Shown here: positions 3,187-24,873 of the stretch, piece after piece
How positions within the stretch are numbered: the stretch's first letter is position 1
Layout: every line of letters starts with the position of its first letter
Assembly (NCBI RefSeq): GCF_000327485.1
Contig: NC_019943.1
Coordinates: 2,666,001 to 2,730,000 of the forward strand
DNA from: Methanoregula formicica SMSP
GTDB taxonomy: Archaea > Halobacteriota > Methanomicrobia > Methanomicrobiales > Methanospirillaceae
Direction: 5' to 3'
Length of the DNA stretch: 64,000 nt
Position numbers and translations under genes: made by a program
The notes under the pieces: generated by a model
What the model saw: the letters and a program-made list of their open reading frames with translations, nothing else
Database searches by the model: none
Told to the model about the DNA's origin: nothing

Positions 3187-3780
3187 CCGGTATTCTTGTG
3201 GTCCGCATATTTTTGATCCTGCCGGCAGACACCAGAACCGGGGGATACCTGATATCCCAAAAGAAGGACCGGCTGCCCCGCCGGCCCTTTTATTATTCCG
3301 GGCGGCCCGGCTCCATAATCCATCCGGAAGAAGACTGGGGACAGCACTCCGGTGCCAAAAGAGGCCTGTCCATAAACGGAGGTACCTTGCGTGTGGAAAA
3401 GACTGGTTTTTCTCATAAAGAAGGTCTTCTATCGCTTGCTATTCCGCGATAAACCGGCATTCGATCTGCTCCATGACGACCTGTAACTCTTCACCGGCGC
3501 ATTGCCGGTTTGCCGGAATGCCCCTTTTGGGGCTCACGTCTGGATCCGCTCACGGTATGAGGGGGGCACAATACCGGAGGGCAGGGTCGCAAAGGACTGC
3601 CGGCACAATGCCCCAAAAAATTTCCAAACCCGTTAGCCAGACAGGATCGTGCGGCCCGGGAAATACAGCGCGGGAGGCTCCTGCACGCAGGGACAACAGG
3701 CCGGTACTCCACAAAACACACATACTCACGGACGGATACGCTACCGTACGTGAGTTGCGGTCACAGGTTATGGATGCATA
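3187..3780. other. Intergenic stretch without a convincing gene
   Basis: Several short open frames cross this stretch but none has recognisable character. No repeat, terminator or RNA gene was found. The last 60 bases presumably carry the promoter of the UPF0316 gene at 3781. Confidence 0.35.
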
Positions 3781-4335
3781 ATGGACCTTGTCTTACCCTT
3801 AATCATCCTTGTTGCCCGGATTGTCGAGACAACCATGGAGACGATCCGGCTCGTGTACGTAACGAAAGGCCACAAGTATCTCGCGTCGGGAATCGGGACG
3901 CTGAAGATCGGCATATGGGTGCTCTCCACCGGGCTTGTCCTGACGAACCTTGACAATATTCCCGGTATTGTCGCCTACATGCTGGGATATGGTGTCGGGA
4001 CACTCCTTGGCATGACCATCGAATCGTGGATCGGCCTTGGCACGGTCATCATCAGGATCTTCTGCACAAAAGATCCGGAACCGCTCATCCGGCATCTGGG
4101 GGATCTCGGGTACGGGACTACCCGCATTAATGGCGCCGGCCAGTTCGTCTCGTCCGTCGCGGTCCTGCTGAGTATGGTGCCAAGAAAAGAGACGGGACGC
4201 CTGCTTGAAGTCTTAAAGACGAAGTATCCCGATGCGCATTTCACCATCGAGGATGTCTCAACGATGAGTGAGCGGGAGATCTATTTCGGCACGCGGAACC
4301 GCAGGGGCATTCTGGGTTTCACCGGATACAGTTGA
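3781..4335 (+). CDS. UPF0316-family membrane protein, paralog 2
   Basis: This 184-residue paralog of the protein at 281-883 starts closer to its first membrane helix and lacks the first 10-15 residues of paralog 1. It keeps ARIVETTMETIRLVYVTKG, then hydrophobic segments at about 35-55 and 60-80, and a soluble DUF2179-like half ending in HFTIEDVSTM. Presence of two divergent copies within 4 kb suggests an old duplication with separate roles rather than recent copying. The ATG at 3781 is chosen because it places the conserved strip at the usual distance from the N terminus. Confidence 0.85.
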   Translation: MDLVLPLIILVARIVETTMETIRLVYVTKGHKYLASGIGTLKIGIWVLSTGLVLTNLDNIPGIVAYMLGYGVGTLLGMTIESWIGLGTVIIRIFCTKDPEPLIRHLGDLGYGTTRINGAGQFVSSVAVLLSMVPRKETGRLLEVLKTKYPDAHFTIEDVSTMSEREIYFGTRNRRGILGFTGYS

Positions 4336-4366: not shown

Positions 4367-4588
4367 TCAGGAACCATCAATGGTAATAATCTGCACCGGG
4401 CAGAGATCCGCAGCATCCTGTGCGCATGCTTCAAGATCTGACAGGGGCGTCCCTGTCCCGGGATTCCCGCCCAAACGGTATTTTTCAACAACCTGGCTGA
4501 ACGTGTCATCCGGGTTCTGTTCAAAGAAGCCCGGGCAGGCATCCCGGCAGGAATCGCAGCTGACACTGGTTGAACGATAGATGCTCAC
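4367..4588 (-). CDS. Degenerate [4Fe-4S] ferredoxin, first Cys ligand replaced by Ser
   Basis: This 73-residue protein aligns over its whole length with the ferredoxin at 21509-21733, sharing QNPDDTFSQV, DLEAC, QDAADLCPVQII and the acidic tail. In the intact copy the N-terminal motif is C-x2-C-x2-C-x3-CP. Here the first position is Ser, giving S-x2-C-x2-C-x3-CP, so one of the four expected cluster ligands is missing; the remote Cys of LCP is kept. Serine can occasionally ligate a cluster, so function cannot be excluded. It lies 28 bp downstream of a broken DUF6448 gene, the same order as the intact pair near 22 kb. It may be a decaying or repurposed duplicate. Confidence 0.7.
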   Translation of the reverse strand: MSIYRSTSVSCDSCRDACPGFFEQNPDDTFSQVVEKYRLGGNPGTGTPLSDLEACAQDAADLCPVQIITIDGS

Positions 4589-4616
4589 TCTGATGAAACG
4601 GACTCCCCAAAAAGGA

Positions 4617-4920
4617 TTAGTGGTGCCCGCACCCGGCTTTTTCGCTGTGCTGCTCCCCGTGGCCTGCGGTGCTTGTCACATTCACGTACAGGTGATGGGA
4701 ATACACGACCCAGCCGATGAAGGCTTCTATTGAACTCCCTGCCGGCAGCAACATCGTTCACGTCATACTACTCCTTTTCCATGACATGATGGAAGCGGTG
4801 GGTAAGATCGTCCTCAACGGTTTTCAGGATAAAATCGATCGTTTCTTTGGGAGCGCCGGTCTCGATTGCTTTCTCAGCTCTTGGCACGACCGGGCCCTCG
4901 CTCAGGCCGGCAGGTTTCAT
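4617..4920 (-). pseudogene. DUF6448 gene remnant (5'-truncated, nonsense codon, frameshift)
   Basis: Read leftward from 4920 the frame gives MKPAGLSEGPVVPRAEKAIE and continues as RFHHVMEKE before a TAG at 4768-4770. This matches the intact DUF6448 protein at 21759-22319 from its residue 84 onward. After the stop the same frame continues YDVNDVAAGRE, then a frameshift restores IEAFIGWVVYSHHLY and a His-rich tail ending at 4617. About 83 N-terminal residues are missing, because the sequence changes at about 4925 into another gene remnant. The gene cannot make the full protein. Confidence 0.8.
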
Positions 4921-4927
4921 CCCGGCG

Positions 4928-5283
4928 GTCGGTGAACGGTTCAGGGACAGGACGTTCCCGGCGAAGATCAAGATCGGGTCTCGGGCTGCCCCCGCTGCTG
5001 CGGCGAGAGCCATACCCGGGACATCGGCATCATGGGGACGAACAAGAGATGGACGATCCTCTTCGGGGGCAATGCCGGGACGCGGCCACGGTTCGCAGAC
5101 ATCATCGCCCGCAACCTGTCGGCAGCGGATGCGCTTGACTGCGCTGAGAGGCTTGCCGAATTTTACCGGATCCATGCAAAATCCCATGAGAGGACCGCCC
5201 GGTTCATGGAGCGTGTCGGAATGGAAACGATCCGATCCGCGCTCTTATCGCTCCTGCCGTATGTACCAGTTAAACAGATATAA
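4928..5283 (+). pseudogene. Siroheme nitrite/sulfite reductase C-terminal remnant
   Basis: Read rightward, one frame gives VGERFRDRTFPAKIKIG and, after a one-base deletion near 4977, the adjacent frame gives VSGCPRCCGESHTRDIGIMG, then WTILFGGNAGTRPRFADIIA and a helical tail to the stop at 5281-5283. The C-P-R-C-C block is the second cluster/siroheme Cys motif (CxxxC) of the sulfite and nitrite reductase family, and GGNAGxxPR is the usual following motif. The whole N-terminal half, including the first Cys motif, is absent. It resembles the small archaeal dissimilatory-type sulfite reductase-like proteins of methanogens. It ends 4 bp before the cupin start, so its old transcript probably included that gene. 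Confidence 0.75.
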
Positions 5284-5287
5284 TGAG

Positions 5288-5632
5288 ATGAAAATTACTG
5301 AAGTAGCACAATTGGAATCAGTGAAAAATCCGCACAATGTCGATGTACGGAAAGTATTCGAAGCCCCTGATACCTCAGCCGTGGTCATCACGCTGAAGCC
5401 CGGTGAATCGCTCAAGAAGCACGTCACACCGGTCGCTGTCTTTTTCTACGTGCTTGAGGGAACGGGTGTCGTTGAAACCGGTGAGGAGCGGCAGAGCGTT
5501 GGCAGGGACTCTGTTGTGGAGAGTCCCGCGATGATTGCACACACCTGGAAGAACGAGAGTAATGCTGTGGTTCGTATCCTCGTCGTGAAGATCCTTACCA
5601 CAGGAAAAGGAAAAGACACCAGACTCCGGTAA
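5288..5632 (+). CDS. Small cupin-domain protein
   Basis: The 114 residues form a single beta-barrel cupin. The core is LKPGESLKKHVTPVAVFFYV followed by LEGTGVVETG and, about 35 residues later, ESPAMIAHTWKNES. His residues in the first and second motifs (KH, AHTW) could bind a metal. Single-domain cupins of this size act as metal-dependent enzymes or small-molecule binders; substrate cannot be told. The ATG at 5288 lies just after the stop of the sulfite reductase remnant, which suggests they once formed an operon. A T-run terminator follows. Confidence 0.8.
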   Translation: MKITEVAQLESVKNPHNVDVRKVFEAPDTSAVVITLKPGESLKKHVTPVAVFFYVLEGTGVVETGEERQSVGRDSVVESPAMIAHTWKNESNAVVRILVVKILTTGKGKDTRLR

Positions 5633-5633
5633 C

Positions 5634-5640
5634 TTTTTTT
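5634..5640 (+). terminator. T-run terminator after the cupin gene
   Basis: Seven consecutive T residues begin immediately after the cupin stop codon, the usual form of an archaeal intrinsic terminator. Confidence 0.6.
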
Positions 5641-5806
5641 AGGCGAGGCGGTCGCGGAGCAATGCTTTGCACGGTGCAGTTGTTCTTTACGGAATGTACG
5701 AGGAAATGCCGGTCCTCCTGTCCAGTCCATGCCCGGGTTGGTAAACCTGCGCGAAAGAGAGTGCCACGGATTGTAAAAAAAGGAATTAGGCCGGGATTCA
5801 GGCCAT

Positions 5807-6178
5807 TCACGCAAAATTCCTGACCTTCCCGATCATCTCTATTCGTGCCTTCAGCTCGCCCTGCTTCTCCCTGCTGATGGCGTCAAGGATATTCTTGAAA
5901 GGCACTTTCAGGGTCCAGATCTTTATCGGGCGCCCCTTATTGGGGGTAACGGATTCCCGGTTCTCGATCCAGCCTTTCCTTTCAAGGTACTTCACCGCAA
6001 CACTCACTTCGGGCTGGCGGAGGTCTGCCCCGTGTTCGATGTCATAGCTTGTGGCCGTCTTCAGTCTTGCAAAAAGCACGAGCGTCTTTGCGATGGTCTG
6101 CTTTGTTCCGATCCTGACAAGGAGGTTGATGAATTCCTCCTCCTTGTCCGTAAACAGGTGGATTGTTTTTTCGATCAT
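5807..6178 (-). CDS. Winged-helix transcriptional regulator (ArsR/MarR-like)
   Basis: This 123-residue protein has a central winged helix: KTLVLFARLKTATSYDIEHG, recognition part RQPEVSVAVKYLERKGWIE and a wing around NKGRPIKIWTL. N-terminal residues 1-30 and the C-terminal 30 residues are helical and likely mediate dimerisation. Related archaeal proteins are annotated as predicted transcriptional regulators. It is convergent with the cupin gene and has its own AT-rich upstream region (6195-6240). No ligand-binding domain is visible, so it may sense through its dimer interface. Confidence 0.75.
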   Translation of the reverse strand: MIEKTIHLFTDKEEEFINLLVRIGTKQTIAKTLVLFARLKTATSYDIEHGADLRQPEVSVAVKYLERKGWIENRESVTPNKGRPIKIWTLKVPFKNILDAISREKQGELKARIEMIGKVRNFA

Positions 6179-6657
6179 GATTCATTTCCTTTTGGATTGA
6201 TTCATCCTGTTATTATTATACCATTAAATGCATTTTGGTTAGGGGGGCGAATGAGTCCCGAATTCAGGACGGAAAACTATTCGTAATGAAAAATATATTC
6301 CGGCAAGCCGGGCGCATTTCGCTTCGTAACGGCATGAAGCATGTAACCCGGAAGATAGATCAACAAACCAATCCTATCGTCCGAATATTTAATAAAAAAT
6401 ATCGAAGAATTTTGCAATCACGTGCATAACCGCGCCCCCTCCGGGGTGCGTGTGTGCAGTGAGAGGGCAGCCGGAAATGATAGAGGTGACAGAAGGAATG
6501 CCATCTCCCGGATGATTCCATGCTCGTTCCCGTCTGGGAACGGCCGGATACTCCCGGATTGTAGGGTTAACGGGAGTATTTCGGAATCATCTCACGGGGA
6601 TTGTGTGACTTCGCGGTAACGAACGAAGAACAGCAACCACACCTGTGAGGTGATAGG
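6179..6657. other. Intergenic region with AT-rich promoter stretches
   Basis: No supported gene. AT-rich segments at about 6215-6240 (leftward regulator) and 6385-6420 (TTTAATAAAAAATATCG) are likely promoters. The remainder shows no repeat or RNA structure that I can support. Confidence 0.4.
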
Positions 6658-8098: not shown

Positions 8099-8324
8099 TA
8101 AATCGCCCCGTTTTCGAATCAGAGGCTATTTTGGAAAACCGGTTTCCGGAGGATCGCACTTTTTGGCGAATTAACGTACAGTTATTTTGAACAGAGCGAT
8201 TTTCGGGGGGATTTACCCCTACAGGGACGGATAATGCCCGGGAAAAATGCCAGTATAGGAACTCCCGGTTTGAGGATCTGATTACGATCCATGGACTGGA
8301 GTGTGCGAGAGACCGGGTGGGGAC
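8099..8324 (+). repeat. Interspersed repeat, copy 1 of 3 (about 225 bp)
   Basis: This block is recognisably the same sequence as 12658-12880 and 17416-17641. Shared landmarks in order are GTTTTCGAATCAGAG, TCGCACTTTTTGGCGAATTA, CCCCTACAGGGACGG (this copy), TGCCAGTATAGGAACTCCCG and GACCGGGT. All three copies lie in the same orientation, in intergenic space. No frame stays open in all three, so the unit looks non-coding. No terminal inverted repeat is obvious. Confidence 0.85.
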
Positions 8325-12657: not shown

Positions 12658-12880
12658 TAAATCGGTTTATTTTCGAATCGGATGCTGTTTTGGATTGCCT
12701 GTTTCTGGCAGGTCGCACTTTTTGGCGAATTAGAGTACAATGAATTGAAAAGGAAAGATTATTGGAGACATTTTCCCCTACAGAGGCAGGAATAGCCCCG
12801 GAAAAATGTCAGTATAGGACCTCCCGGTTCAACGATCGGACTGCAAGCCGGAGATCGGTGAACAGGGAAGACCGGGGAGG
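12658..12880 (+). repeat. Interspersed repeat, copy 2 of 3
   Basis: This copy keeps TTTTCGAATC, GGCAGGTCGCACTTTTTGGC, TTCCCCTACAGAGGCAGG and AAAATGTCAGTATAGGACCT, in the same order and orientation as the other two. It lies between the leftward Cys/His-rich unit's promoter and the 3' end of the FeoC-like gene. Confidence 0.85.
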
Positions 12881-12902
12881 CGTCTTTCCGGCACCCCACC
12901 CA

Positions 12903-17415: not shown

Positions 17416-17641
17416 TAATCGCTCTGTTTTCGAATCAGAGCCCATTTTGGAGAACCGGTTTTCGGCAGGTCGCACTTTTTGGCGAATCAGAGTACAGCGA
17501 ATTGAAACGGAATAATTATTGGAGATATTTCCCCCTACAGGATTAGAGACTGCCCCGGAAAACTGTCAGTATAGGACCTCCCGGTTTGAGGATCGGTCTG
17601 CGATCCAGGGATCGGAGTATGCATTGAACCGGGTAGAGGGG
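17416..17641 (+). repeat. Interspersed repeat, copy 3 of 3
   Basis: This copy keeps GTTTTCGAATCAGAGCCC, CGGCAGGTCGCACTTTTTGG, TATTTCCCCCTACAGG, CTGTCAGTATAGGACCTCCC and TTTGAGGATCGG. It is the closest to copy 1 in its central part and to copy 2 around the middle. It ends about 20 bp before the stop of the isochorismatase gene. Confidence 0.85.
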
Positions 17642-19299: not shown

Positions 19300-20802
19300 T
19301 CAGACTGCATCCTTCCACTGGCACGAGCAGTGCCGGAAATCCATCAGGGCCGCAGATGCGCAGTCCTTGCAGATCCGTGCAGGAGCCGCTGCAGCCTCTT
19401 TGTGAAGTGCGATGATGTTCGTCATTAAGGTTGCTGTCACCGGCTCGCTCGTTAAGAGGCACGGGTAATCGGCAAGCCGCATCATTGCCGAGAACCGGAC
19501 CGTCATCGCACAGGCCGGGTACGCGTACCGCTGCGGGTTTGCCAGCACCTCGTTCTTCGTGATGGGCGAAAGGTCGACATCGAACCCGCCGGCCTTCGGA
19601 ACCACCGGGCCGGCATCGGCTGCCTGCATCCTCCGGGCCTTGTCCACCATCTTCCAGCCCCGGTAGATCATGTCCATGAAATCGCAGTTGTGGAGCTCGA
19701 TGGCCGCTCCCCGCTTCGGGTAGAGCTGGACGTAGTTGTGGTAGCGCTTGGTCAGCATGTCCACGACCATGATAGCGTTGAACCCGTCGAGTTCGAGGAT
19801 ATACTCCGCGGCGCTGGCCGAGGCGCCGGTGGCGACCGAGAGCACCTCGTGCTCGGTCTTCATCTTCGGCGCCGCTTTCGAAAGCGTCCTGTCCATGACC
19901 TCGGTCACGGACTCGATGACCGCCATGATCACGTCGTCCTTGCACATGTTGTACGTGGACTGCGAGATGTGGTGGGCGATATCGCCAACGCAGTAGGCCG
20001 GGACCGTCACGATGTTGCCGTAGTGGACGCCCTCGTCGAGCGATGCCTTCACCGCACCCTCCATCTTCTTCCGGTACTCCTTCATGTACTTCCGGCAGTC
20101 GAATGAGGACTGGCCCACGCCGTCCATCAGCTTCGCCTGCGCATCGACCGGCGTGTCGTAGATGGACTGGACCATTGCTACCTCCTGCTTCACCGCATCG
20201 GCAAGGGTCGCCCCGCCTTCAAGGGCATGGGCAAAGACATCGCCAATGCCGTACGAGGTGTTCATGGCCCACGATTTCGCGGCGAGGATCGTCTGCTTGT
20301 GGGCAACGGGGATGTCCACGGTCTTTAAGATCTGGTTGACGATGTTGCTGCTGCTGCCCGGAATCAGGGCGAAGTCCACGACGCAGGTCGGGCCGTAGAA
20401 CCCGGCATAGCGCCGGGCCGACTCCTTCCCGATCAGGGCCTCGGCCTTCCCGACCGCTTTGATGAATGCGTCCACGCTCCTTCGGAACTTCGGATCCGCA
20501 TCGTAGAGCATCTCCATGATGACCGGGGTCTGGTAATGTTCGACGAACGGGTCGTCCTCGGGCCGGATGGTGGTGGTCAGGCCCTTTAAGATCGCGTAGT
20601 GGGCGTTGACCGAGTCGGTATGCAGCGCAAAGACCGCCTTGCACTGGCTCCCGGCGGCTTTCATGCCCTTGACGGCATCGACATAGGCTTTCGTGTCGTC
20701 GATGACGAACTTCTGCCCGCGCTTCTTCTTGACCTGGTTCACGTCGGCGTGCTGGGCAGCCATTGCCTCCTTGATCATTTTTCTGATGATTTCCTGTTCC
20801 AT
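19300..20802 (-). CDS. DUF2193-family protein
   Basis: This is a 500-residue soluble protein of the archaeal DUF2193 family, whose function is not established. Visible features are a helix-rich N terminus (EQEIIRKMIKEAMAAQHADV), conserved blocks GFYGPTCVVDFALIPGSSSN, GIGDVFAHALEGGATLADAV and TVPAYCVGDIAHHISQSTYN, and a C-terminal half with Cys residues (AYPACAM, CKDCASAALMDFRHCSC). The terminal cysteines could bind a metal or cluster. The start at 20802 has CAGGAGGTCATT upstream. It leads the DUF2193-DUF2180-aquaporin unit beside oxidative-stress genes, which is the only hint to its role. Confidence 0.85.
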   Translation of the reverse strand: MEQEIIRKMIKEAMAAQHADVNQVKKKRGQKFVIDDTKAYVDAVKGMKAAGSQCKAVFALHTDSVNAHYAILKGLTTTIRPEDDPFVEHYQTPVIMEMLYDADPKFRRSVDAFIKAVGKAEALIGKESARRYAGFYGPTCVVDFALIPGSSSNIVNQILKTVDIPVAHKQTILAAKSWAMNTSYGIGDVFAHALEGGATLADAVKQEVAMVQSIYDTPVDAQAKLMDGVGQSSFDCRKYMKEYRKKMEGAVKASLDEGVHYGNIVTVPAYCVGDIAHHISQSTYNMCKDDVIMAVIESVTEVMDRTLSKAAPKMKTEHEVLSVATGASASAAEYILELDGFNAIMVVDMLTKRYHNYVQLYPKRGAAIELHNCDFMDMIYRGWKMVDKARRMQAADAGPVVPKAGGFDVDLSPITKNEVLANPQRYAYPACAMTVRFSAMMRLADYPCLLTSEPVTATLMTNIIALHKEAAAAPARICKDCASAALMDFRHCSCQWKDAV

Positions 20803-21508: not shown

Positions 21509-21733
21509 TTAGTCCGCTATGCTGATGATCTGCACGGGGCAGAGGTCTGCGGCATCCCGCACGCAGGCTTCCAGGTCATCCGGCGAGATGCCCTCGGCAA
21601 TGGCCCCCGCGGACCGGAATTTTTCCCGGACCTGGCTGAAGTGATCGTCCGGATTCTCTTCAAAGAAGTCCGGACAGGTCTCCCAGCAGGTCCCGCAGCT
21701 GGTGCAGGCATCACGTTGGATACTGACGTTCAT
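21509..21733 (-). CDS. Monocluster [4Fe-4S] ferredoxin
   Basis: This 74-residue protein has C-x2-C-x2-C-x3-CP (CTSCGTCWETCPDFFEENPD) and a remote LCP cysteine, matching archaeal monocluster ferredoxins of the Pyrococcus type: three N-terminal ligands plus the remote Cys, with the remaining two cysteines (C20 and EAC) placed for a disulfide. It carries single electrons in the cytoplasm. The gene follows the DUF6448 gene by 25 bp. A duplicate with the first ligand lost is at 4367-4588. Confidence 0.9.
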   Translation of the reverse strand: MNVSIQRDACTSCGTCWETCPDFFEENPDDHFSQVREKFRSAGAIAEGISPDDLEACVRDAADLCPVQIISIAD

Positions 21734-21758
21734 GTGTTTCCCTCACCTCAAGGGCAGG

Positions 21759-22319
21759 TCAATCGTGTCCGCCACTGCATGCACATCTCTTTTCGCCATG
21801 GTGTTTCCCATGTCCGCCTGCTTCAATGATCGACATATAGAGGTGGTGGGAATGTACCACCCAGCCGATGAACGCTTCAATGTACTCCCGGCCGGAGGCC
21901 ACGTCATTGACATCGAACTTTTTCTTTTCCATCACGTGGTGGAAGCGGCGCATGAGGTCTTCCTCAACCGTCTTCTGGATGAACGCGATGGTCTCCCCGG
22001 GATCGCCGGTCTCGATCGCTTTTTCCGCCAGCGGCACAACCGGGCCCTCGGAAAGCCCTGCCGGTTTCATGCCGGTATACGGTGCACCTTCCCCGGCCCG
22101 GTGGAGCCGGATAGCGTTCTCAAAGAACCAGTCATCGGCAACTTCCTGTGCATAAGGCCCGGCCTTTCTCGCTTTTTGGGTCCGGTCAAAGATCATCTTC
22201 AGTTCTTTCTCGGATTCCCGGGGGATCCAGATCAGGACATGGTTGATATTTCCTGTCTTCAGCGCTTTCTGTGCAGCCCTGACAACAGGCCCGTCCCGCG
22301 TATCACAATGGGGTGGCAT
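21759..22319 (-). CDS. DUF6448-family protein (intact copy)
   Basis: This 186-residue protein begins MPPHCDTRDGPVVRAAQKAL, with CHD-type metal-binding look, and holds two similar halves (DGPVVRAAQKALKTG and EGPVVPLAEKAIETG), indicating an internal duplication. RLHRAGEGAPYTGMKPAGLS, RRFHHVMEKK and VVHSHHLYMSI add many His residues that could bind heme or metal. The tail is His/Cys-rich (GGHGKHHGEKRCACSGGHD). Function unknown. It precedes ferredoxin, and this pair is duplicated in decayed form at 4367-4920. Confidence 0.8.
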   Translation of the reverse strand: MPPHCDTRDGPVVRAAQKALKTGNINHVLIWIPRESEKELKMIFDRTQKARKAGPYAQEVADDWFFENAIRLHRAGEGAPYTGMKPAGLSEGPVVPLAEKAIETGDPGETIAFIQKTVEEDLMRRFHHVMEKKKFDVNDVASGREYIEAFIGWVVHSHHLYMSIIEAGGHGKHHGEKRCACSGGHD

Positions 22320-22395: not shown

Positions 22396-22647
22396 TCAGC
22401 TGCCCGACACGCTGCCGGCCATAGGGCTTTTCTGCAGCGGGATACTCCTGCTCAGGTACAGGATCTGGCGCATGTCCCGCATGTTCATCTTCTCGATGAT
22501 CAATTCGTGCTCCTTGAGCCGTTTTAAGGCAAACCGCACGGTCCTCGGAGAGCAGTGAGTCTTGTTCACGATATCCTTGTGGGTCATCGCGCCCCCCCGG
22601 CCGAGGATCCTGAGCACGATCTTTGATGATGGTGGTAACGGTTTCAT
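22396..22647 (-). CDS. Winged-helix (MarR-like) DNA-binding protein
   Basis: The 83-residue protein is one winged helix: SSKIVLRILGRGGAMTHKDI, recognition SPRTVRFALKRLKEHELI, wing IEKMNMRDMRQILYLS. It follows GGGAGGAGA, and either of two adjacent ATGs (22650, 22647) could start it; 22647 has the better spacing. It lies between an unknown gene upstream and DUF6448 downstream on the leftward strand, so it may regulate the encapsulin group. Confidence 0.75.
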   Translation of the reverse strand: MKPLPPSSKIVLRILGRGGAMTHKDIVNKTHCSPRTVRFALKRLKEHELIIEKMNMRDMRQILYLSRSIPLQKSPMAGSVSGS

Positions 22648-22667
22648 CATTCTCCTCCCGGGGCGGT

Positions 22668-23018
22668 TCAGGCACAACCGGTCCCGCACCCTCCCGCCGG
22701 CATGCCCGCCATCGTCTCCTTTTCTTCGAGGATCCGGGCGAGCCCTTTCTCCACGAAATCGTCGATCGTCTCCATCTTCCCCCAGTCCTCCACGCTGTAT
22801 GAGTCCGAGATGAACGGATCCCGCAGGACGAGGACGTTGCCATCCTGCCCCGGCCCGGACACGTACTTGAGCCCGTGGTGGAAGTGGCGGGTTTCGGGAT
22901 CGCTCTCCCGTGTCACCCGGGCATAGAGGATCCAGTAGGTCAGCGCCTCGGTGGCACTGACATAGATCTCGTAGTCTCTCTCGAACTGTTTCAGGAGTTC
23001 TTTCGTTGTTTCCTTCAT
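22668..23018 (-). CDS. Encapsulin-operon protein of unknown function with a Cys-rich tail
   Basis: This 116-residue protein is helical at the start (TKELLKQFERDYEIYVSATE) and ends in an unusual AGMPAGGCGTGCA. HFHHGLKYVSGPGQDGNV offers three nearby His. No family is recognised, though its place 29 bp after the encapsulin gene suggests a role in the compartment. The C terminus does not look like the cargo peptide seen in the ferritin gene. The start at 23018 is chosen by GGTGA five bases upstream. Confidence 0.65.
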   Translation of the reverse strand: MKETTKELLKQFERDYEIYVSATEALTYWILYARVTRESDPETRHFHHGLKYVSGPGQDGNVLVLRDPFISDSYSVEDWGKMETIDDFVEKGLARILEEKETMAGMPAGGCGTGCA

Positions 23019-23046
23019 GGCAATCACCGCCTCAGGTATCCCTGCA

Positions 23047-23844
23047 TCACGTCAGGACGCAGATCGCCTCCGGCGCCCGGATGAAGAGCGCCAGGCTCTC
23101 GGAGATGGAAAATTCGTACGCATCCCCGGCCGGACCGACAAAGCCGATGCTCATGTCCTGGCCGATCACGATCGAGCAGTACTGCTTCCCGGAGGCCAGC
23201 AGGACCCCGCCGGTCTTCAGGGCAGGGGCCTTGACAACGTCGCCGCCGATGATGGAGCGGATGTGGTCGAGCTCGGTGCCGTCGCCCTGCGGGTACCGGC
23301 GCAGGAGCAGGTTGTACCGCGACGGGGCGAGGCCGAGGCAGTACGGGCCGTGGAAACCGGCGTCGTCCATCTTTGTCACGGCACTGATGATCTGGTCGGC
23401 AGCAGTCCCGACCTTGTCCCACGTGGTGAGGGCGAGCGACCCCGAGCCTTCCGCCCCAAGGAGGCCGGGAGTGTCCCCGATCCCGGAGAATATGATCCCG
23501 TCTTCCTTTGCGGCACACGACATCGCTGCGCAGGCAACAGGGTCAAGGTCCAGCATCAGGTTGTCCCGCTCGGCTGCGGCAATGTCCCGCTTGTTCAGGA
23601 AAAATGTGGTGGTCACGAGGTTCACCGGCAGGAACGGGCTTGCGGTGATCCCTTCGGCAACTTCGCAGTCGCTTAAGGGGACGGCCTTGAGCCCGAACCC
23701 GAACGGTCCTTCGATACTGAGCAGCCGGCGCCCCGCAAGCTGGCTCTTTGCCGCCTCGATCATCGTTGCATCGAGCAGTTTCCAGGTCCCGGCACTGAGG
23801 GGGGCGTCTTCGCGCCCGAGATATGATGTCTCCATGTCATTCAT
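23047..23844 (-). CDS. Encapsulin shell protein, family 1 (linocin M18-like)
   Basis: This 265-residue protein matches the HK97-fold encapsulin family: YLGREDAPLSAGTWKLLDAT, ARRLLSIEGPFGFGLK-like block (GRRLLSIEGPFGFGLKAVPL), DDAGFHGPYCLGLAPSRYNL, and SIGFVGPAGDAYEFSISESL near the end. The shell assembles into a hollow protein nanocompartment. The gene lies 3 bp after the ferritin-like cargo gene on the same strand, the classical order cargo then shell. Length is normal for the family. Confidence 0.93.
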   Translation of the reverse strand: MNDMETSYLGREDAPLSAGTWKLLDATMIEAAKSQLAGRRLLSIEGPFGFGLKAVPLSDCEVAEGITASPFLPVNLVTTTFFLNKRDIAAAERDNLMLDLDPVACAAMSCAAKEDGIIFSGIGDTPGLLGAEGSGSLALTTWDKVGTAADQIISAVTKMDDAGFHGPYCLGLAPSRYNLLLRRYPQGDGTELDHIRSIIGGDVVKAPALKTGGVLLASGKQYCSIVIGQDMSIGFVGPAGDAYEFSISESLALFIRAPEAICVLT

Positions 23845-23847
23845 CTC

Positions 23848-24213
23848 CTAACTGGATTTCAACGATCCAATCGTGGTCTCATCCGCTCCCTGCGGGGACT
23901 TCAGTTCCGGGGGCGCAAGCGATGCAACCATCGCGTCCACTTCGGCAGCCCCTTCCGCCAGGTGCTTCTCCTCGTCACCGGTCAGGATAGCGATGAGGCG
24001 GGAAAATTCCCCCGCATGGACGCGTTCCTCGTTGGCGATATCGATGAGGACCGCCTTTGCCAGGGGGTTGTCGGTGGCATTGGCGTGGGCCATGTAGGTG
24101 TGGACGGCCTCGTGCTCGGAGGCAAGGTCCAGGCGCAGGGCACGGACCAGCTCGTCCAGCGTCATCTCCCGTCCCGGGACCATCCCGGAGAACGGGTTTA
24201 CAAATTCCGGCAT
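23848..24213 (-). CDS. Encapsulated ferritin-like cargo protein (EncFtn)
   Basis: This 121-residue helical protein carries Glu33 with Glu35 (LASEHEAVHTY) and Glu62/His66 (IANEERVHAGEF), positioned like the E32, E62 and H65 iron-binding set of bacterial EncFtn. The C terminus ends DETTIGSLKSS after a flexible Pro/Gly linker (about 100-112), the form of the encapsulin cargo-loading peptide. It should oxidise Fe2+ at a dimer interface so iron can be stored inside the shell. It is translated together with the shell gene, whose start lies 3 bp downstream. Confidence 0.92.
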   Translation of the reverse strand: MPEFVNPFSGMVPGREMTLDELVRALRLDLASEHEAVHTYMAHANATDNPLAKAVLIDIANEERVHAGEFSRLIAILTGDEEKHLAEGAAEVDAMVASLAPPELKSPQGADETTIGSLKSS

Positions 24214-24258
24214 TTCCTTCTCACTCCTGGGGTTGTTCTGCTCCGGGACCTGCCCGGA

Positions 24259-24873
24259 TCATTTCCTTGCGGCCTCGAACCGCTGTGCAACCACATCCCA
24301 GTTCACGATCGTCCAGAACGCGTCAACGAACTTCGCCCGGTCGTTTTTGTAGTCAAGGTAGTAGGCGTGCTCCCAGACATCGAGTACCATGAGGATGGAA
24401 AAGCCGGGGTAGACGTTCGTGTTGTGCTTCTCGATCTGCATGACGAGCGGCCGCTTCGTCTTATGACAGAACGTCAGGGCAGCCCAGCCGGAGCCTTCGG
24501 CGCTCACCGCGGCCTGCGTGAACTCGGTTTTGAACCGGTCGAAGGTGCCGAACTCGCCGGTGATCGCTTTTGCGAGTTCTCCTTTCGGGGCGCCGCCGCC
24601 CTTTCCTGCCGGCGCAAGGTTCTCCCAGAACAGGTTGTGCAGCTTGAACCCCCCGATATGGAACGAGAGTTCTTTGAGCACCGCCTTCATATCGGCTGTG
24701 GCATTCTCCTTCCGTGCCTTGTCCAGTTTTTCATAAATGGCATTTGCACCGTTCACGTACGCCTGGTGGTGTTTCTGGTGGTGGAGTTTGAGCTGCTCCT
24801 CCGAAATTGCGGGCGAAAGAGCGTTGTACTCGTACGGCAGTTTTGGCAGTGAATAAAGCCTGCTGTTTTCCAT
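24259..24873 (-). CDS. sod: Superoxide dismutase, Fe/Mn family
   Basis: This 204-residue protein has the conserved metal ligands and motifs: [15 protein letters not shown] (first His), HNLFWENL (second His), and [13 protein letters not shown] (Asp and His ligands). It converts superoxide to oxygen and peroxide in the cytoplasm. Fe or Mn preference cannot be decided reliably. The start at 24873 has GAGGAGAGAATC upstream. The gene is just upstream of the ferritin-encapsulin pair, linking oxygen defence with iron sequestration. Confidence 0.93.

Follow-up and report, generated by a model that had tools for sequence, protein, structure and literature searches.

A pseudogene junction between DUF6448 and siroheme sulfite reductase genes in Methanoregula formicica

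The closest described counterparts of the reductase at this locus are the group I Dsr-like proteins, the small siroheme sulfite reductases (SiR) of methanogens (PMC3448663). Intact orthologues of our SiR are like them in being about 228 aa long, in combining NIR_SIR and NIR_SIR_ferr domains and in having no ferredoxin domain. The copy in the window (the whole 64,000-nucleotide stretch of Methanoregula formicica SMSP DNA analysed here) keeps the SGCPRCC motif, but it has no N-terminal half and is frameshifted. The best NCBIfam match of the intact orthologues is to NirB-type models (4.4e-51), and they are therefore only possible members of group I.

Its partner at the locus, DUF6448, is a Pfam family (PF20046) of which the literature searched held no mention; nor did that literature describe the gene's neighbourhood. 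The intact copy in the window (21762-22319) belongs to the family, scoring 189.8 bits against a gathering cut-off of 27 (3.3e-56). The damaged copy is the C-terminal half only and was assigned by alignment to the intact one, not by profile. The predicted structure of the intact protein is helical, and the model is a confident one (pLDDT 88). A Foldseek search of this model against the PDB gave no significant match (best E 2.6), and VIA-align returned only generic helical matches (best Z 5.7). In both archaea and bacteria, a number of its Asp, Arg, Glu and His positions, such as R51 and H73, vary little or not at all.

In kind, the locus does not differ from known deletion-fusion pseudogenes, in which one deletion across a divergent promoter leaves two remnants joined 5' to 5'. 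As in those cases, truncated genes stand head to head and have then acquired stops and frameshifts, and intact orthologues exist in sister species. Its genes, DUF6448 and the small SiR, are little studied. We conclude that the scar is an ordinary, recent pseudogenisation, well documented by comparison. Its value is as a clean and datable operon loss in an archaeon, for which sister species allow one locus to be compared intact, deleted in another way and half decayed.

Three damaged genes around one junction

As the original prediction held, the window contains a DUF6448-ferredoxin pair twice, in the same order and with close spacing. One cassette is intact (21509-22319, minus strand). The other belongs to a run of three damaged genes, ferredoxin, DUF6448 and SiR, lying between a DUF5698/DUF2179 gene (3781-4335, plus strand) and a small cupin gene (5288-5632, plus strand; Cupin_2, 1.4e-13). 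The two DUF6448 copies match at E = 7e-35 and the two ferredoxins at 2e-24, and over 564 bp the cassettes are 68% identical in DNA. About 29 bp separate the remnants, where 28 bp had been given.

The DUF6448 pseudogene (4618-4925, minus strand) begins, by alignment to the intact copy, at codon 84 (ATG at 4920-4918) and runs on to the stop, so that the first 83 or so codons are gone, as predicted. The stop and the frameshift that had been described with this loss are also there: an in-frame TAG (HVMEKE*YDV) and, between GREF and IEAF near 4731, one inserted nucleotide. Over 86 aligned residues the remnant is 90% identical in amino acids to the homologue on contig L079, from Methanoregula PtaU1.Bin051. 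Between these two dN is 0.042 and dS 0.63, and the low ratio (0.066) indicates strong constraint until recently, and hence recent decay.

Next to it on the same strand lies the ferredoxin (4367-4588), a 73-aa, GTG-started frame of the single-cluster Fer4_13/Fer4_15 type. Its first cluster cysteine, in the CxxCxxC motif, is replaced by serine; the residue is cysteine in 13/13 intact homologues aligned, which agrees with the ligand loss noted earlier. The closest homologue is again that of PtaU1.Bin051 (77% aa), and dN/dS to it is 0.21. Because this value is within the range of functional pairs, the case for loss is made by the absent ligand and by the missing start of the operon. From its sequence, the ferredoxin is probably non-functional, with its frame still open.

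On the other side of the junction, the SiR pseudogene (4926-5283, plus strand) retains the last ~118 of ~228 codons. Its Pfam match is to NIR_SIR (6.7e-17) and covers only positions 52-150 of the 158 in the profile. The full set of NIR_SIR and NIR_SIR_ferr domains was not found in this remnant; both are present in the intact orthologue of genome G019 (PF01077, 2.1e-27; PF03460, 1.8e-13). Its closest relatives are the SiR of Methanoregula sp. STB_131 (genome G052) and then that of PtaU1.Bin051, in a tree from which the out-of-frame G007 row was left out. Alignment to the intact STB_131 gene (~91% DNA, 88% aa identity) and the reading frames place a 1-nt deletion, a frameshift, near 4979. dN/dS against STB_131 is 0.33 (0.064/0.192), above the 0.05-0.19 that most intact pairs give in this region; the changes on both the window and the STB_131 branch look relaxed, over few sites.

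The switch between the two genes is as abrupt as predicted, at about 4925, from DUF6448 to the C-terminal half of an opposite-strand SiR. Aligned with the intact PtaU1.Bin051 gene, DUF6448 homology extends to TTTCATCCCGG, and the STB_131 SiR alignment begins at 4921. The junction is therefore confined to 4921-4926. A 5-bp CCCGG there matches the DUF6448 side (PtaU1.Bin051) exactly; on the SiR side (STB_131) it is exact or has one mismatch, depending on the alignment. The 2-5 bases shared there, CC(C)GG, may be a microhomology; they are too few to prove any mechanism. In a search of 39 genomes of the genus, only that of the window had the junction.

The cupin follows SiR directly, an order found in many relatives, and it has outlived its partner: against STB_131 it is still constrained (dN/dS 0.040/0.329). 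A 261-aa plus-strand ORF (4847-5632) spans the junction in frame with the cupin. Such a frame probably stays open by chance in GC-rich DNA; alternatively, it could extend the cupin at its N terminus.

Layouts in related genomes

Had DUF6448 once stood divergent from an intact SiR gene, as the original prediction supposed, relatives might keep that layout, and they do. In six Methanoregulaceae contigs (L068/G019, L071, L078, L079, L081/G005 and L127/G010), the DUF6448 and SiR genes are both intact and divergently oriented, about 2-5 kb of other genes lying between them. In a seventh contig, L075, the two are intact, divergent and only 90 bp apart. The two findings that would have told against the original prediction were both absent: none of the other genomes searched had this junction with intact genes, and homologues of the joined segments do occur near each other. 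The PtaU1.Bin051 contig holds the whole intact layout, its 4.6-kb gap filled with genes. In G019 (L051/L068), one strand carries ferredoxin, DUF6448, small Zn-finger and other proteins, a cupin, a NapH-like protein, a SnoaL-like protein and Hcp; the other carries an HxlR regulator, a ferredoxin-type protein, SiR, hemerythrin/rubredoxin and a cupin. We take the names SnoaL, HxlR, hemerythrin and rubredoxin from the sequences themselves rather than from profile hits. L071, L078, L079, L081 and L127 show variants of this arrangement. Comparison of the scar with these contigs thus indicates a conserved, uncharacterised DUF6448/SiR neighbourhood in Methanoregulaceae.

The flanks of the scar can be placed as well. 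Homologues of the DUF2179-type genes next to it (DUF2179a/b, the DUF5698/DUF2179 gene included) lie on the DUF6448 side of intact cassettes in L074, L076, L077 and L081. Hence, the remnant is at its ancestral place. On the SiR side, STB_131 matches window 4921-6279 with 90% DNA identity and has at the syntenic position an intact 228-aa SiR, then a cupin and then a TrmB-like gene, whose counterpart in the window (5807-6178, minus strand) is 88% identical in amino acids. With SiR still whole at this position in the sister species, truncation of the window copy postdates the species split. In STB_131 itself, a different deletion has taken DUF2179b, ferredoxin and DUF6448 from this locus, and a match to window 3388-3479 lies just upstream of its SiR. 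Because of that deletion, the layout of the immediate common ancestor is not directly observed. Some of the operon may have been lost before the junction arose.

How the junction arose

Very probably, one deletion after the split from STB_131 joined the divergent DUF6448 and SiR genes, and the stumps then decayed. The ancestral Methanoregula locus would have held two divergent operons. In one, cupin, small-protein, NapH-like or Hcp genes would have stood upstream of DUF6448-ferredoxin; the other would have been SiR-cupin, in many cases joined by a regulator or a ferredoxin gene. A single deletion from about DUF6448 codon 83 to about SiR codon 108, possibly at the CC(C)GG microhomology, would have taken away the intervening genes along with the promoters and the 5' halves on either side. 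Point lesions would have come later (the stop and frameshift in DUF6448, the frameshift in SiR and probably the ferredoxin ligand loss), while the downstream cupin gene survived. We infer the single event, its mechanism and its size. The deletion would have spanned about 0.7-5 kb, most likely 3-5 kb, the larger figure applying if the ancestor was like G005 or PtaU1.Bin051. A deletion as small as ~0.7 kb is possible because the L075 genes are only 90 bp apart.

Could the loss have taken two steps? The intervening genes might have gone before the STB_131 split, giving an L075-like layout, and a deletion of ~0.7 kb across the shared promoter region might have followed. The 90-bp spacer of L075 offers a model for the intermediate, and STB_131 too has no intervening genes near its SiR. 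Against this, the L075 SiR is distant from those of the window and STB_131, on a long branch, whereas the close PtaU1.Bin051 retains its 4.6-kb gap. We consider two steps possible, though a good deal less probable than one.

The original prediction had allowed for deletion or recombination, and the absence of the 5' halves narrows this to deletion. In the complete 2.82-Mb genome, searches for the missing 5' halves of SiR and DUF6448 found only clear paralogues elsewhere, which favours deletion over translocation or inversion. In favour of a move of the middle segment within the chromosome, there are homologues of Hcp, cupin and a 96-aa protein together at 1.20 Mb and of the NapH-like gene at 1.91 Mb. 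However, their identity to the G019 genes is only 59-78%, and no SiR or DUF6448 5' halves or fragments were found at their edges. NapH, the 96-aa protein, Hcp and full SiR, each searched against the same genome, gave paralogues only, and a translocated middle segment was rejected. We regard such a move as very unlikely.

Equally improbable is that the remnant arose by duplication of the 21.5-kb cassette in the window lineage and then decayed, which gene order, spacing and the 68% DNA identity might suggest. The remnant DUF6448 is 75% identical in amino acids to the intact window copy, against the 90% it shares with PtaU1.Bin051. In the protein tree the remnant groups with PtaU1.Bin051, among SiR-operon copies (support 86/86), and the intact copy groups with the encapsulin-locus copy of STB_131 (99/96). 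By both tree and identities, the two window copies are not each other's closest relatives, and the tree rules out a recent duplication. Judged on protein sequence, the remnant cassette is the one that has long belonged to the SiR operon; the intact cassette is not its parent but an older paralogue. The description "decayed duplicate" thus holds for a homologous, same-order and decayed cassette, but not for a recent copy. An assembly or sequencing artefact, which the presence of the junction in a single genome might raise, is the least credible explanation, given a single-contig genome that is 99.97% complete, independent lesions on both sides of the junction (a stop, two frameshifts and a lost cysteine) and flanks syntenic with STB_131.

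A second truncated SiR tail (codons 163-228) lies in this genome at 2.03 Mb (G000:C1:2033906-2034106; L161:4910-5107), directly behind a PhoU-like gene and directly before an intact cupin. STB_131 shares it, as part of a region in which the genomes are 98% identical, and hence it is older than the window scar. Tentatively, the lost module (DUF6448-ferredoxin-small proteins-cupin-NapH-like-SnoaL-Hcp against SiR-cupin) may be an undescribed methanogen stress system, perhaps for nitrogen oxides, sulfite or oxygen. This lineage would have taken it apart repeatedly and kept the SiR-linked cupin, as at the scar and the 2.03-Mb tail.

The intact cassette and its surroundings

Beside the intact cassette, window 22396-24873 encodes a winged-helix regulator, a family 1 encapsulin shell protein (NF041155, 2.4e-69), an EncB-type ferritin-like cargo (NF058679, 2.6e-36) and a superoxide-dismutase-like protein. 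Homologous genes repeat this order in the relatives G047 and G048. We predict that these genes form a methanogen encapsulin cluster for iron or oxygen stress, with DUF6448 as a regular neighbour.

At 19300-20802 the window encodes a 500-aa DUF2193 protein (Pfam, 4.6e-271) that adjoins a MIP-type channel; assignment as MtaB was rejected, the Pfam match being DUF2193. The DUF2193 protein travels with DUF6448 cassettes in several Methanoregula genomes. Elsewhere in the window, 8111-8316, 12670-12900 and 17427-17622 all match one ~200-bp stretch of the sister contig L145 at 74-83% identity, which suggests a dispersed intergenic repeat in Methanoregula.
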